DNA of 64,000 nucleotides from Candidatus Kapaibacterium sp. (lineage in GTDB: Bacteria > Bacteroidota > Ignavibacteria > Kapaibacteriales > HRBIN21), in the NCBI GenBank assembly GCA_938084565.1, contig CALKEU010000005.1, forward strand, positions 193,715-257,714. Reading direction: 5' to 3'. Shown here piece after piece: positions 3,208-8,399 of this stretch. Under the pieces are notes generated by a model. It worked only from the letters and a program-made list of their open reading frames with translations. It had not been told where the DNA came from and searched no databases. The number at the start of each line of letters is the position of its first letter. Positions within the stretch are counted from its first letter, which is position 1. The position numbers and the translations under genes were made by a program.

Positions 3208-4611
3208 ATGGAGATGGATGAGAAAGCGTGGGAGTGCCTTGAGGAAGCCGAGCAGGTAGAGCAACGCATTGGAGCGCTGCAGCAGCGGGGACGTTCGTTT
3301 GTCCTGTTACCGTGGGCACATCCGGCGTGTATTCCGAGCTTCCGCCCTCCGTTCGAGTGGGGGCAGCCTCCGCGGCGAGCTGTTTCGTGGGGGAGGCGTC
3401 TGCTCTTCGGCATGCTTCAGAGCGCACCGCGGTGGGATTCCAGTAGCCCAATCCCGGGCGAGCACGTACGCTCTGTACTGGTGTTCCGCTACGATGGTAT
3501 TGGGGACTACATCGTGACGACCCCGCTCTTGCGCTACCTCCGGCAGGGATTGCCACAGGCGCAAATAACTCTGCTGACCTCCACACGCAACGATATGCTT
3601 GCCGCAAGGGACCCTCATGTCGATAGGCATTGGCCAATCCATCCCCAACACGGCTTTCACCCCTCGTGGCTGACGGCGGCGGCTCGGCTGCGTGGACCAT
3701 ACGAGGTAGTCTTTGCGCTGGTTTTCCCCCACATGAGTAAAGCAGCCTTTCTGGCTCGGATTCTTGCGCCGGGCGCAGAGTATGTGGCACCCTACCATGC
3801 GGAGCGGGCAGCTGTCTACGGGAGGGTCTTTCATCGGCAGCCCGTCATACGCCACTGGCGGCAGCATTGGGCGCAGTTGTTGTTAGAGATAGGAGTCCAG
3901 ACACTTGAGCCAGTCTGCTCGGTTGAGCCCGAACAACGGCCGTATGTGCCCATCTCTCCACGGGCTTGCCAGCGAGTCTGGGAATGGATCGAACGGCGGG
4001 GGCTTGGTACTACTGCGCCTCGAGCCCCTCTCGTGTGGGAGCGTGGATGTGAGGGGGGAGGGTGGGAAGAGCTCTCCGGGACCCCGTACGTGGTGGTGAA
4101 TCTCTCCGCGTACACCGAGAACCGATCGTGGCTTCCGCACCATGCGCTCTTAGTCTGCCGCGAGCTCCTGCGGCGGCTACCAGAGATAGAGTTGCTTGTG
4201 ATTGCCTCGCCACGGCAGCAGCGCTGGGCCGAAAGCCTTGTGCAGTTAGTGTCTCACCCTCGCTGCCGGGCCTTTCGGGGAAGCTTTGCCGATATTGCGG
4301 CTCTCATGGCAGGAGCAGCATGGGTCATCACGCCCGATACGGCCATCGTGCACATAGCAGCGGCATTGGGCAAGCCGGTGGTGGGATTGTACGGCGAACT
4401 GATCAAGGTGGCAGAGTGGTATCCCTTTGGTGTTCCCTTCGTGCTTGCGGTCAGCTCAGCGCTTGAGGGGATCTCATTCCTTCCGCCCGGTGCGGTCGTA
4501 GAGGCTGTAGAACGTCTGCTGCAGCAGGTTATTCCGTCGGGTTTTGTGGTGCCGCCAGACCAACAGCCCAGACGAGTAGCGAACTCAGCGACCGCCACCG
4601 CAGCCCGGTGA
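3208..4611 (+). CDS. Glycosyltransferase family 9 (heptosyltransferase-like)
   Basis: This 467-residue protein resembles GT9 enzymes, which add heptose or related sugars from ADP-activated donors to the LPS core on the cytoplasmic face of the inner membrane. An N-terminal Rossmann half carries VLVFRYDGIGDYIVTTPLL (GT9 proteins start with a similar R-x-GDxxxTTP pattern), and the C-terminal half carries the donor-binding signature WVITPDTAIVHIAAALGKP followed by VVGLYG. About 90 N-terminal residues precede the first GT9 motif, longer than usual. I chose the ATG 4 bases after sprA rather than the upstream in-frame start at 3112, which lies inside sprA. The last 83 bases overlap the convergent oxidoreductase gene. 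The sugar and acceptor cannot be told from sequence. Confidence 0.82.
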   Translation: MEMDEKAWECLEEAEQVEQRIGALQQRGRSFVLLPWAHPACIPSFRPPFEWGQPPRRAVSWGRRLLFGMLQSAPRWDSSSPIPGEHVRSVLVFRYDGIGDYIVTTPLLRYLRQGLPQAQITLLTSTRNDMLAARDPHVDRHWPIHPQHGFHPSWLTAAARLRGPYEVVFALVFPHMSKAAFLARILAPGAEYVAPYHAERAAVYGRVFHRQPVIRHWRQHWAQLLLEIGVQTLEPVCSVEPEQRPYVPISPRACQRVWEWIERRGLGTTAPRAPLVWERGCEGGGWEELSGTPYVVVNLSAYTENRSWLPHHALLVCRELLRRLPEIELLVIASPRQQRWAESLVQLVSHPRCRAFRGSFADIAALMAGAAWVITPDTAIVHIAAALGKPVVGLYGELIKVAEWYPFGVPFVLAVSSALEGISFLPPGAVVEAVERLLQQVIPSGFVVPPDQQPRRVANSATATAAR

Positions 4612-7294
4612 AGCATTCGAGAGCCATTTCACAGGGGGGATTGCTGCTGTAGCCTTCGGGAGGCAGGTCTGCAGACAGGCTACGCCATGCTTGTACGATG
4701 TGCTGAATTGCCGATTGGGCCAATTCGGGGAGGAACAGCCACCGGTCTCCAGCTGCCCCGCAGCACTCAGCTGTCGAGGCACTCAAGACCTGCTCAGCGC
4801 AGGCATGGGCAAGCCTACGTAGGTGCTCTGTCGTGCCCATCAGTCGGGCCGAACAAGGGATATGGAGGAGAATGGCAGGCCGCCGATGTGGGAGAGAAAG
4901 GTGGGGCAGAAGCTGCACTAGAAACTCAGTGCTGTCGACAATGGTGGGGGTTCCTGCCGCAGTATGGCTTTTGAGCCACTGGGTACACGAGCTACCCTCG
5001 ACCACGAGCGTCTGCGGTCGGAGGCGGGTGAGCGCGTCCTGGAAGTGCTTCAGGGCGATAGCAGCAGCTTGGGGCAAGCCTTTGGAAGCAAACAGCAGGC
5101 CACAGCAGAAGCGCTCGGCAGCGGGAAACCACTGGAGCTCGAGTCCAGCGCGCCGGGCCACTTCGGGCAAGAGGAGAAGCTCGGGGCTCCCTGCCCAACG
5201 GCTAGGGCAGCTCGGGAAGAGTACCGTTGAGGCGCCTTCCGTAGCGAGTCCAGCGGACCACCGAGGCAGGGGAGAGCGTAGAGTTGGCTGCCATAGCGGG
5301 AGTCGGCCGTTGCTCCACCGGTGGAGCCGAGCGCTGATTGTCTGGAGGCGCTCAGCGCCTACAAGGCGTGCCGCAGACCGTCCGGTGAGGAGGAGCAGCC
5401 GTACGGCTGTGTCTACAGCAGCAAAGTGCTGAGCGAGAAAGCCCGCTCCGCGATGGATTACGGTAGGTTGGAGCTGCCTCCGAAGGGTTCGCACGACCTC
5501 TCCTGTATCGATGCCAATCGGGCAGTGGAGGTGGCAGAGACTGTCGGTAGCGCACGTGTCCAGCAGGGCGTATCGCCAGAGGTGGTGGGAGAGGGTACTT
5601 GCACGGCGCAGCAGGACAAGCCGCTGCCGCGGGGTCAGAGTCAGGCTCCGGCTGGGGCAGACAGGTTCGCAGAAGCCACATTCCATGCAGCGATCAACCT
5701 CTGAGCCGGTAATGGGGAGCTGCTTGAGCTGCTGTATGTGGATGCGCTCGCGACGGCTGAGGATGACGTCAGGGTTCAGGATGCCATCGGGATCGATGAG
5801 CTGCTTGAGCTGCCACATCAGCTCGTAGGCTTCGTCGCCCCATTCCGTACGGACAAAGGGCGCCATATTTCGTCCCGTGCCGTGCTCGGCTTTGAGCGAG
5901 CCACCATGGCTGAGCACCAGTGCGACAATCTCGTCTATGAAAGCAGCGTAGCGCTCCGTATCCTCGGGGCCCATGAGGGGTTGGGGCAGCACGAAGTGGA
6001 GGTTTCCGTCTTTTGCGTGGCCGAAAATGACAGCGTCAGCGTAGCCGTGGCGCTGTAGAAGATGGCGGAGCTGGGTGAGGGTTTCGGCCAGGGCTTCCAG
6101 GGGTACGGCGATATCTTCGCTGATGGGTGTAGTTCCCGGTGGGCGGCGGGCGGCCACGGCCGGATACAGGCTCCGCCGAGCTTCCCACAACTGGGGAGCA
6201 CCTTCGGAGGTGAGCAGGAGGGGCTGCAGCAGGGGCACGGAGCGGAGGGCAATAGTTGTTTCCCGCTGGCATTCCTGGAGTTCACTCCAGGCAAAGCGCT
6301 GGTACTCAAAGAGGAGGGCCGTCGCCGTAGGCGGTAGTGGGGGGAGCTCCATATTTGCGCTGCTGCAGAAGGAGCGGAGAGAAGCGGCATCGAGAATTTC
6401 GACAGCATCAGCGCCGAGTTCCCGGAGCTGGATGACTGTCTGGCAGGCTGCTTCCGGTGTGGGGAAGAGGGCAAATCCGGTCACGCGCAGTGGGGGATCC
6501 GGGACCGTCCGGAGCACGATCTCGGCCAAGAAGCCCAGGGTTCCCTCCGAGCCAACCATCAGGTGAGCGAGAATCTGTGCCGGGGCGTCGTAGTCGAGGA
6601 AGGCGTTTAAACTGTAGCCGACCGTGTTTTTGAGCTGGTACTTGCGGCGAATGCGTTCGGAGAGTCCTGGTGAGCTGAGGATGTGCTGCCGTATTCTGAG
6701 CAGTCCCTCAGCCAATTCGGGGGAGTGCTCCCAGAGCAGACGGTCAGCCTCCGGGAGAGCTGTGTCGAGCACTAGCCCGTTGGGGAGCACAAGCACGAGA
6801 GAATCCAGCGTGCGATAGGCCGTCTGGCGTGTCCCGCAGCACATGCCGCTGGCATTGTTCGCAACAATGCCGCCAATAGTGCACACGGCCACGGAGGCAG
6901 GGTCTGGTCCGAGGCGGCGCCAGTAAGGGCGTAAATGCTCATTGAGTACACCGGCACGTACCCCGGGTTGTGAGCGGATACGGCGTCCGCCATCCAGAAT
7001 CTCCCACCGCTGCCAGTACCGACGTACCTCCACCAGCACGCCTTCCGTAACAGCTTGCCCCGAAAGGCTCGTGCCAGCGGCGCGAAAGGTGAGGGGCACT
7101 CTATAGGAGCGACTCCATGCGAATAGATGTAGCACATCAGCGATGGTACGGGGGAAAACGACAGCTTGCGGTACGTACCAGTAGAGGCTCGCATCGGATG
7201 CAAAGGCATAGCGTGTCAGAACCTCCGTGTGTACCTGCTCAGGCAGGAGGCCAGCCCGCAGCGCCTGTTCCGCCTGCGGCGAAAGCTCCTCCAT
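4529..7294 (-). CDS. FAD-binding and Fe-S-binding dehydrogenase (D-lactate / D-2-hydroxyacid dehydrogenase family)
   Basis: A 921-residue fusion of a GlcD-like flavin half and a GlcF-like iron-sulfur half, the layout of Dld-II and YdiJ-type D-2-hydroxyacid dehydrogenases that pass electrons to the respiratory chain. The N-terminal PCMH-type FAD domain (about residues 35-210) contains FRAAGTSLSGQAV and GGIVANNASGM. The FAD-oxidase C domain follows, with HAKDGNLHFVLPQP and KAEHGTGRNMAPF. A 4Fe-4S segment has CMECGFCEPVCP and CATDSLCHLHCP. The last third carries two CCG motifs (FCCG and ECCG) of the heterodisulfide-reductase-like cysteine-rich domains. It starts 3 bases after the CADD-like gene, so the two are translationally coupled. 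Its 3' end lies 83 bases inside the convergent glycosyltransferase gene. The substrate (D-lactate, glycolate or 2-hydroxyglutarate) is not resolved. Confidence 0.88.
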   Translation of the reverse strand: MEELSPQAEQALRAGLLPEQVHTEVLTRYAFASDASLYWYVPQAVVFPRTIADVLHLFAWSRSYRVPLTFRAAGTSLSGQAVTEGVLVEVRRYWQRWEILDGGRRIRSQPGVRAGVLNEHLRPYWRRLGPDPASVAVCTIGGIVANNASGMCCGTRQTAYRTLDSLVLVLPNGLVLDTALPEADRLLWEHSPELAEGLLRIRQHILSSPGLSERIRRKYQLKNTVGYSLNAFLDYDAPAQILAHLMVGSEGTLGFLAEIVLRTVPDPPLRVTGFALFPTPEAACQTVIQLRELGADAVEILDAASLRSFCSSANMELPPLPPTATALLFEYQRFAWSELQECQRETTIALRSVPLLQPLLLTSEGAPQLWEARRSLYPAVAARRPPGTTPISEDIAVPLEALAETLTQLRHLLQRHGYADAVIFGHAKDGNLHFVLPQPLMGPEDTERYAAFIDEIVALVLSHGGSLKAEHGTGRNMAPFVRTEWGDEAYELMWQLKQLIDPDGILNPDVILSRRERIHIQQLKQLPITGSEVDRCMECGFCEPVCPSRSLTLTPRQRLVLLRRASTLSHHLWRYALLDTCATDSLCHLHCPIGIDTGEVVRTLRRQLQPTVIHRGAGFLAQHFAAVDTAVRLLLLTGRSAARLVGAERLQTISARLHRWSNGRLPLWQPTLRSPLPRWSAGLATEGASTVLFPSCPSRWAGSPELLLLPEVARRAGLELQWFPAAERFCCGLLFASKGLPQAAAIALKHFQDALTRLRPQTLVVEGSSCTQWLKSHTAAGTPTIVDSTEFLVQLLPHLSLPHRRPAILLHIPCSARLMGTTEHLRRLAHACAEQVLSASTAECCGAAGDRWLFLPELAQSAIQHIVQAWRSLSADLPPEGYSSNPPCEMALECFTGLRWRSLSSLLVWAVGLAAPQNPTE

Positions 7295-7297
7295 GGC

Positions 7298-7990
7298 CTA
7301 TACAACAGCTGTCGGACGGAGGCAGTAGGTCTGGTAGATGCCGTCTAAGAGAAAGTTGAGGGCATCGGCAGCTTCGGAGGCTGCCTCGAGCACGCGTTCT
7401 TGCTCCTGTGGGGTGCCACATACTTTGGCCAGCGCTTCCCGGAGAACTGCTCGATGGAGCAGATCAGCCTCTATGTGAACGGTGAAGAAAGCCAGCCCGC
7501 GTTCGTCCGTGATACCGTAGTAACGACGTAATCCCTCGAGCTTGACGGCGGCTACCTCGGGGAACTGAGATTCGTAGGCGTAGAGCGCAGCCAGCCCCTC
7601 GGCCGGGTGTGCACGGCAAGCAAGCTCATACAAGAGCTCGACGGCCAGCCGGGTCTGCGGCAAATAGGAATGTGTCAGCAGTTCTTCGCGAGGAACCCCC
7701 AGAGCTTCAGCAAAGCGTATCCAGAGCTCAGGGTGGTTGTCTGGACCTCTCTCTTCTTCGAGGAGGTTTTCCAGCAGCATCTGTCGGAGTTCAAGATCGG
7801 TGCATCGCGAGTGCGTAGCGCTGAGATAGGTTGGGAATCTGTGGACGTGCAGATAGTACTCCTTGGCGTACTCCCGCAACACCGGGAGTGTGAGAGCTCC
7901 CTCATTCCACAGCTGGTAGAAGGGATGCTGGAGCAAGTGCCGCTCAGCAATCAGTGCATCCAGCGCCTGCAGAAACTCCTGTGCCGACAT
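7298..7990 (-). CDS. CADD-family self-sacrificing p-aminobenzoate synthase
   Basis: This 230-residue heme-oxygenase-fold protein is very close to chlamydial CADD, which makes the folate precursor p-aminobenzoate by cutting it out of one of its own tyrosines in an oxygen- and metal-dependent reaction. Recognisable blocks include HPFYQLW, YAKEYYLH, FPTYLSATHSRC and ALYAYESQ. Every catalytic residue known from chlamydial CADD appears here shifted by exactly two positions: Tyr25 (sacrificed Tyr27), Lys150 (Lys152), and metal ligands Glu79, His86, Glu140, His172, Asp176 and His179. The gene heads a two-gene unit with the flavin/Fe-S dehydrogenase, 3 bases apart, and is read from a TATTTTCG box at 8034-8041. 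A PqqC/TenA enzyme with another substrate is the alternative, but the residue match argues against it. Confidence 0.87.
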   Translation of the reverse strand: MSAQEFLQALDALIAERHLLQHPFYQLWNEGALTLPVLREYAKEYYLHVHRFPTYLSATHSRCTDLELRQMLLENLLEEERGPDNHPELWIRFAEALGVPREELLTHSYLPQTRLAVELLYELACRAHPAEGLAALYAYESQFPEVAAVKLEGLRRYYGITDERGLAFFTVHIEADLLHRAVLREALAKVCGTPQEQERVLEAASEAADALNFLLDGIYQTYCLRPTAVV

Positions 7991-8059: not shown

Positions 8060-8102
8060 CTTACGATGAGCGGAAGTGTTCCCTGGGTTGGTGTTGTTCC
8101 TC

Positions 8103-8399
8103 ATGGTTGCCGATACGCTCGTTCGGCCGCTGGGCGAGCCTGAGATTATCGAGGAAGAGAGCACCGGGGCTGATTTGCCGGCAAAGGTAATTCTCTTCAA
8201 CGACGATTGGCACACATTCGAGGAAGTGATCGTGCAGCTCATGAAGGCCACCGGCTGCGGGCGGGAGCGTGCGGAAGCCTTGACGTGGGAGGTACACACC
8301 CGGGGTAAAGCAGCAGTGTATGAGGGGACGCTCACGGAATGCCTGCAAGTGAGCAGCATTCTGGAGGAAATTGCGCTCCACACGCAGATTGAGTACTAA
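8103..8399 (+). CDS. clpS: ATP-dependent Clp protease adaptor ClpS
   Basis: A 98-residue protein matching ClpS, the adaptor that binds N-end-rule substrates and delivers them to the ClpA/ClpC-ClpP protease in the cytoplasm. The core motif [16 protein letters not shown] is the ClpS signature that builds the pocket for the substrate N-terminal residue. It is followed by the helix [22 protein letters not shown] and the closing strand region usual in the family. The N-terminal ~25 residues are variable, as expected for the flexible extension. I chose the ATG at 8103; the open frame reaches 8076 without an obvious ribosome site. The gene stands alone, divergent from the CADD gene and convergent with PBP1A with only 6 bases between stops. 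No clp ATPase gene is nearby. Confidence 0.93.

Follow-up and report, generated by a model that had tools for sequence, protein, structure and literature searches.

The window analysed here is a stretch of 64,000 nucleotides from Candidatus Kapaibacterium sp. Positions 7298 to 7990 hold a gene on the minus strand encoding a protein of 230 amino acids, with its ATG at 7990 and its stop codon TAG at 7298-7300; the plus-strand reading of the same positions is interrupted by stops. The gene had originally been predicted to encode a self-sacrificing p-aminobenzoate (pABA) synthase of the CADD type, and this assignment is borne out by a family model, by a phmmer match to the chlamydial structure 1rcw (CT610) and by the active-site residues. 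Against the NCBIfam model TIGR04305 (fol_rel_CADD, "CADD family putative folate metabolism protein") the protein scores 275 bits (3.9e-82, cut-off 200) in a full-length match, and we found no difference that sets it apart from this family. The best three matches among PDB sequences are 9pj4 (1e-52), 1rcw (5.6e-52) and 8va9 (1.4e-51), of which 9pj4, a 4-aminobenzoate synthase, is taken for the Nitrosomonas enzyme, judged by its aligned peptides. An AlphaFold2 model of the window protein, built from 14 sequences, reached a mean pLDDT of 94.0 and predicts the seven-helix HDO fold. Upstream of the CADD gene, in divergent orientation, lies a small gene (8076-8399, plus strand), which by the look of its sequence we take to resemble a ClpS adaptor.

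The HDO fold is common to PqqC, TenA, BesC and other proteins, and their metal ligands are partly those of the CADD family. A different HDO or an oxidase of the TenA/PqqC type, acting on another small-molecule substrate, would show the same fold, and weaker matches to the PqqC model (66.6 bits, cut-off 240) and the BesC model (38 bits only, cut-off 500) do exist; moreover, HDOs catalyse many reactions (PMC13108848). We regard such a function as very unlikely, since the CADD model is the only one passed and the Tyr/Lys pair is kept in 14/14 phylum members. Foldseek ranks CtCADD (8va9) first in the PDB for the predicted model (TMt 0.95, rmsd 1.4, 43% identity) as against 20-25% identity for PqqC and 14-25% across the structural alignments to PqqC, TenA and BesC, and in the phylum CADD and chorismate-binding enzymes are mutually exclusive (see below). 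On these values identities as PqqC, TenA or BesC were rejected.

By count, the window protein has Y25, E79, H86, E140, K150, H172, D176 and H179. Tyr25, Lys150 and six metal ligands had been named at exactly these positions, each two residues before its chlamydial CADD counterpart, and the alignment to 1rcw agrees: phmmer sets residues 5-107 of the query on 7-109 of the chain ungapped, the next block starts from 108/110, and because the first gap falls only after H179 the offset of two is valid for all eight residues. Tyr25, the predicted self-sacrificed tyrosine (codon 7916-7918, minus strand), corresponds to CADD Tyr27 and NePabS Tyr25, and Lys150, the predicted amine donor (codon 7541-7543, minus strand), to CADD Lys152 and NePabS Lys159. 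Tyr41, Tyr45 and Trp90 are also present as counterparts of NePabS Tyr41, Tyr45 and Trp99; in that enzyme the Tyr41 counterpart is essential and exchange of Tyr45 or Trp99 for Phe lowers activity (PMC11965152). All eight residues and the three aromatics are invariant in 14/14 aligned phylum members, in an alignment that derives from a profile search without motif bias and leaves out the below-cut-off loci L015-L017. A wider set of 96 sequences, biased because most of its loci were chosen by the motifs H[ML]L[QHE]HPFY and YESQIPE[IV], has Y25, Y41, Y45, H86, W90, E140, K150, H172 and H179 invariant in 96/96, E79 in 95/96 and D176 in 94/96; L015 and L016 are included here, and L017, which failed the E-value threshold, is absent from both alignments. 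The window protein combines the TIGR04305 match, the Tyr/Lys pair, six dimetal ligands (three His, three carboxylates), the supporting aromatics and the fold of the CADD/PabS family.

Two further positions concern the choice of metal. Chlamydial CADD, a Mn/Fe user, has Tyr141 and Tyr170, and NePabS, with Phe148 and Phe177, prefers Fe/Fe; the NePabS variant F148Y works about equally with Fe/Fe and Mn/Fe, and F177Y and the double variant prefer Mn/Fe (Stone et al., PMC11965152). The window protein has Tyr139 at the first position (codon 7574-7576, minus strand; equivalent to CADD Tyr141 and NePabS Phe148) and Phe168 at the second (codon 7487-7489, minus strand; equivalent to CADD Tyr170 and NePabS Phe177). 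It belongs neither to the chlamydial Mn/Fe subtype with Tyr at both positions, on account of Phe168, nor to the Nitrosomonas Fe/Fe subtype with Phe at both, on account of Tyr139, and is a hybrid of the two with the same pattern as NePabS F148Y. Because of this shared pattern, the enzyme is predicted by analogy to accept Fe/Fe as well as Mn/Fe. The Mn/Fe cofactor assumed in the original prediction does not follow, the second metal-selecting position being Phe instead of Tyr, and in view of the behaviour reported for NePabS F148Y (PMC11965152) we rejected Mn/Fe as a safe prediction. Within the same motif-biased set Tyr occupies the first position in 94/96 sequences and Phe the second in 90/96. 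The hybrid pair would accordingly seem to be a common natural form, of which we found no published account, and it offers a test of the published metal-choice rule without mutagenesis. Two diverged CADD-like genes with about 28-29% identity, L015 (1501-2037) and L016 (410-892), occur in genomes G109 and G160; they keep Tyr25, Lys150 and all ligand positions, with some Glu/Asp swaps, and carry the mirror metal pair Phe/Tyr.

Downstream of the CADD gene, separated from its stop codon by three bases (7295-7297, minus strand), begins the ATG of a 921-residue protein (4529-7294, minus strand) with FAD-binding, FAD-oxidase C-terminal, 4Fe-4S and CCG domains (PF01565, PF02913, Fer4, CCG). It is a dehydrogenase of the GlcD-GlcF or D-2-hydroxyglutarate dehydrogenase type; it scores below cut-off against both TIGR00387 and NF049975, and the solved structures closest to it are those of a D-lactate dehydrogenase and a glycolate oxidase. 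The dehydrogenase also follows CADD in L018, L019 and L020, which together with the window form a clade of four genomes with 100/100 support. The pairing, of which the original prediction said just that it does not belong to the known chlamydial system, is real here and is limited to these four genomes: the dehydrogenase was not found after CADD in the other 77 of 80 named loci, nor beside CADD in the other 13/13 carriers of the phylum, and a general CADD-dehydrogenase operon was rejected, adjacency being absent outside the one clade. Most relatives do have homologues that are more distant (32-50% identity), encoded at other places in the genome.

A different neighbour is more frequent. In 34/80 loci a class-II glutamine amidotransferase follows CADD on the same strand, 6-237 bases on (L021-L034, L036, L037, L041, L043, L045-L047, L056, L058-L060, L063, L064, L066, L067, L069-L071, L073, L074), and by the tree these make up 34 of the order's 44 named loci. 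Among curated models the amidotransferase comes closest to EgtC (185.9 bits, cut-off 218.65). Its place next to CADD may reflect a gene order passed on by descent; our search of open papers, mainly of listings, returned none that treats CADD together with such an amidotransferase, and we found no published account of the two kinds of downstream partner. Of the remaining 10/44 order loci three are those of the dehydrogenase clade. The other seven group together as a clade of their own, and in the three of them whose long contigs were inspected, L035, L039 and L044, CADD is followed by a different long gene. The next long frame after CADD in L057 is on the opposite strand.

Since several different genes lie downstream of CADD within one order, the dehydrogenase is unlikely to be an obligate partner. 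As an addition to the main explanation, one might nevertheless assign it a dedicated role beside CADD, such as supplying the electrons with which O2 is activated: the spacing is three bases, the order of genes is the same in 4/4 genomes of a fully supported clade, and in vitro both CADD and NePabS depend on a reductant (PMC11965152). We consider this role unlikely, given the missing adjacency in the other carriers and loci, the homologues placed elsewhere, the other genes found downstream of CADD instead, and the nearest solved relatives, which oxidise 2-hydroxy acids. Probably the dehydrogenase is simply co-transcribed with CADD in this clade.

The genome to which the window belongs (G000; 1.87 Mb, 16 contigs, rated 100% complete) was searched for the chorismate route to pABA. 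Neither pabB nor, by profile search, any member of Pfam PF00425, the chorismate-binding enzymes that span PabB, TrpE and isochorismate synthase, gave a match. Dihydropteroate synthase (DHPS), which uses pABA, is present with 322.7 bits. Judged by the pabB and PF00425 searches, the gene takes the place of the chorismate-based Pab route, and the missing enzymes together with the retained DHPS support the replacement originally proposed. The loss appears to exceed that first claim, for besides PabB a profile search for chorismate synthase gave no match in this genome, and AroA was not found over cut-off (76.7 bits, cut-off 287). A weak match to the AroA model is present in every member of the order; we take these matches to be MurA, from the known relation of AroA and MurA. 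FolK, over cut-off in 24/26 genomes searched and not seen in one (G199), is represented here by a C-terminal piece only, beside a run of N. CADD does not adjoin folK or folP in this genome: CADD lies on contig C5, folP on C11 and the folK piece on C3. These absences rest on profile searches in a genome that partly reads N; an N stretch could possibly hide a gene here, which is less likely to be so in all relatives.

Among 198 genomes of the phylum, CADD is found over cut-off in 14, namely 13 in the order of the window and a single genome, G164, in another part of the class, and in 14/14 the gene is intact with no internal stop. PF00425 is missing in 14/14 of these carriers as compared with 4/184 other genomes (Fisher p 3e-18, which like the further Fisher values overstates the number of independent events because the genomes have common ancestry). 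In the tree the order, G164 and the cyanobacteria represent at least three separate placings of CADD. Chorismate synthase is absent in 13/13 CADD carriers of the order and present in G164; AroA over cut-off is likewise absent in 13/13, and DHPS is present in 14/14 phylum carriers. Among 50 of the 80 named loci, and with L038 left out, a further 24/24 members of the order, counted by their place in the tree, lack PF00425. Of the 25 other genomes in this 50-locus set, 19 have at least one PF00425 match and six have none (L061, L075, L087, L091, L095, L096). L038 (G210, 4.9 Mb) is a counter-example with CADD, PabB and isochorismate synthase; the assembly may be a mixed bin, or CADD may have been gained recently. 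Judged by this gene content, the chorismate route by which pABA is normally made appears to be lost throughout the lineage. We could find no published account of an order that uses CADD while chorismate synthesis is undetectable in it; open papers, searched mainly as listings, included none that connects Kapabacteria with CADD, with chorismate or with shikimate.

The four non-carriers without PF00425 are G109 and G160, which have the diverged CADD-like genes, and G097 and G180. In G109 DHPS is present, and chorismate synthase and PF00425 are absent. G097 has chorismate synthase, AroA, FolK and DHPS and neither PF00425 nor CADD; because it has DHPS while lacking both, absence of PF00425 does not demand CADD. 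This genome could be cited in favour of an uptake of pABA or folate from neighbours, which would leave the CADD-like protein a relic or a protein with a second role. So could the report on the Kapabacteria-related 'Candidatus Thermonerobacter thiotrophicus', which may not make aromatic amino acids (2019, PMC6338057); the lineage lives in mats and is probably auxotrophic for them. We hold uptake to be highly improbable as the explanation, as the gene is intact and its active site invariant in all 14 carriers, which argues for selection on the reaction.

A comparable exchange is seen in a second phylum. In 100 genomes from the cyanobacterial order that includes Okeania hirsuta, the source of L048, CADD is over cut-off in 9. 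Exactly two PF00425 matches occur in 7/9 carriers versus 5/91 others (Fisher p 1.6e-6), and 86/91 non-carriers have three or more. The carrier G229 has four PF00425 rows, three of which are adjacent pieces on one contig; with these pieces joined the value becomes p 5.9e-8. G300, with CADD and three PF00425 matches, is an exception. Nine cyanobacterial carriers are in the 50-locus set, and in the five scanned the weaker PF00425 match was isochorismate synthase (5/5). CADD-bearing cyanobacteria tend to miss one chorismate enzyme, PabB by elimination.

Taken together, the window gene very probably encodes a self-sacrificing CADD/PabS pABA synthase, most simply the organism's source of pABA and folate. 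By analogy with CtCADD and NePabS, the dinuclear metal centre of three His and three carboxylates would react with O2, and the oxidising equivalent would pass to Tyr25 via aromatic residues, for which Tyr139, Tyr45, Trp90 and Tyr41 are candidates. The side chain of Tyr25 would then be cut off, leaving glycine behind; on the released ring piece the carboxylate would be made with O2, and Lys150 would supply the amine, so that each copy of the protein yields one pABA. For the studied enzymes, O2 activation, radical transfer, conversion of Tyr to Gly, the Lys amine and the origin of both carboxylate oxygens from O2 are described in PMC11965152 and PMC13108848. Because DHPS is kept and the chorismate enzymes are undetected, pABA and folate most simply derive from a tyrosine of the window protein. 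The lineage seemingly cannot make tyrosine, and Tyr25 would therefore come from scavenged tyrosine or peptides; the 2019 suggestion that a Kapabacteria-affiliated lineage may lack synthesis of aromatic amino acids (PMC6338057) fits this reading.

We infer that folate synthesis in the lineage is O2-dependent. Haem-copper oxidase-family genes in 22/22 genomes searched fit an O2-requiring reaction; as PF00115 also spans nitric oxide reductases, this count alone does not prove aerobic respiration. One may go further and suppose that the order makes folate free of chorismate and has recruited the amidotransferase and the dehydrogenase as partners that alter the chemistry. The amidotransferase could then spare Lys150 as amine source and the dehydrogenase could feed electrons to a centre that tolerates either Fe/Fe or Mn/Fe. 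The chorismate-free half is well supported by genome content and the partner half draws on gene order; jointly they make an unlikely proposal.

A CADD/PabS synthase as the source of pABA would extend self-sacrificing pABA synthesis beyond the few bacteria studied so far to an order that is free-living and in part thermophilic. There CADD appears to be the sole pABA route, each pABA would cost one protein molecule, and folate would hinge on O2 and scavenged tyrosine. Coming from a hot-spring bacterium, the homologue may also be more robust material for work on the mechanism, which is still unsolved.

The CADD/PabS family is already known, as are the reaction it catalyses and its scattered presence among environmental bacteria. 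Chlamydiae make chorismate, whereas chorismate synthase is not detectable in the lineage of the window, and chlamydial CADD adjoins a folate gene cluster, whereas folP and the folK piece of the window's genome are on other contigs. CADD (CT610) of Chlamydia trachomatis, a Mn/Fe enzyme, has Tyr170 where the window protein has Phe168; the two share the fold, the Tyr/Lys pair, the six ligands and the tyrosine at the Tyr141 position. NePabS (NE1434) of Nitrosomonas europaea, a Fe/Fe enzyme, has Phe148 in place of Tyr139, and the alignment to 9pj4 contains a short insert missing from the window protein. With NePabS the window protein has in common Tyr25, the lysine (Lys159), Tyr41, Tyr45 and the tryptophan, as well as phenylalanine at the second metal-selecting position.
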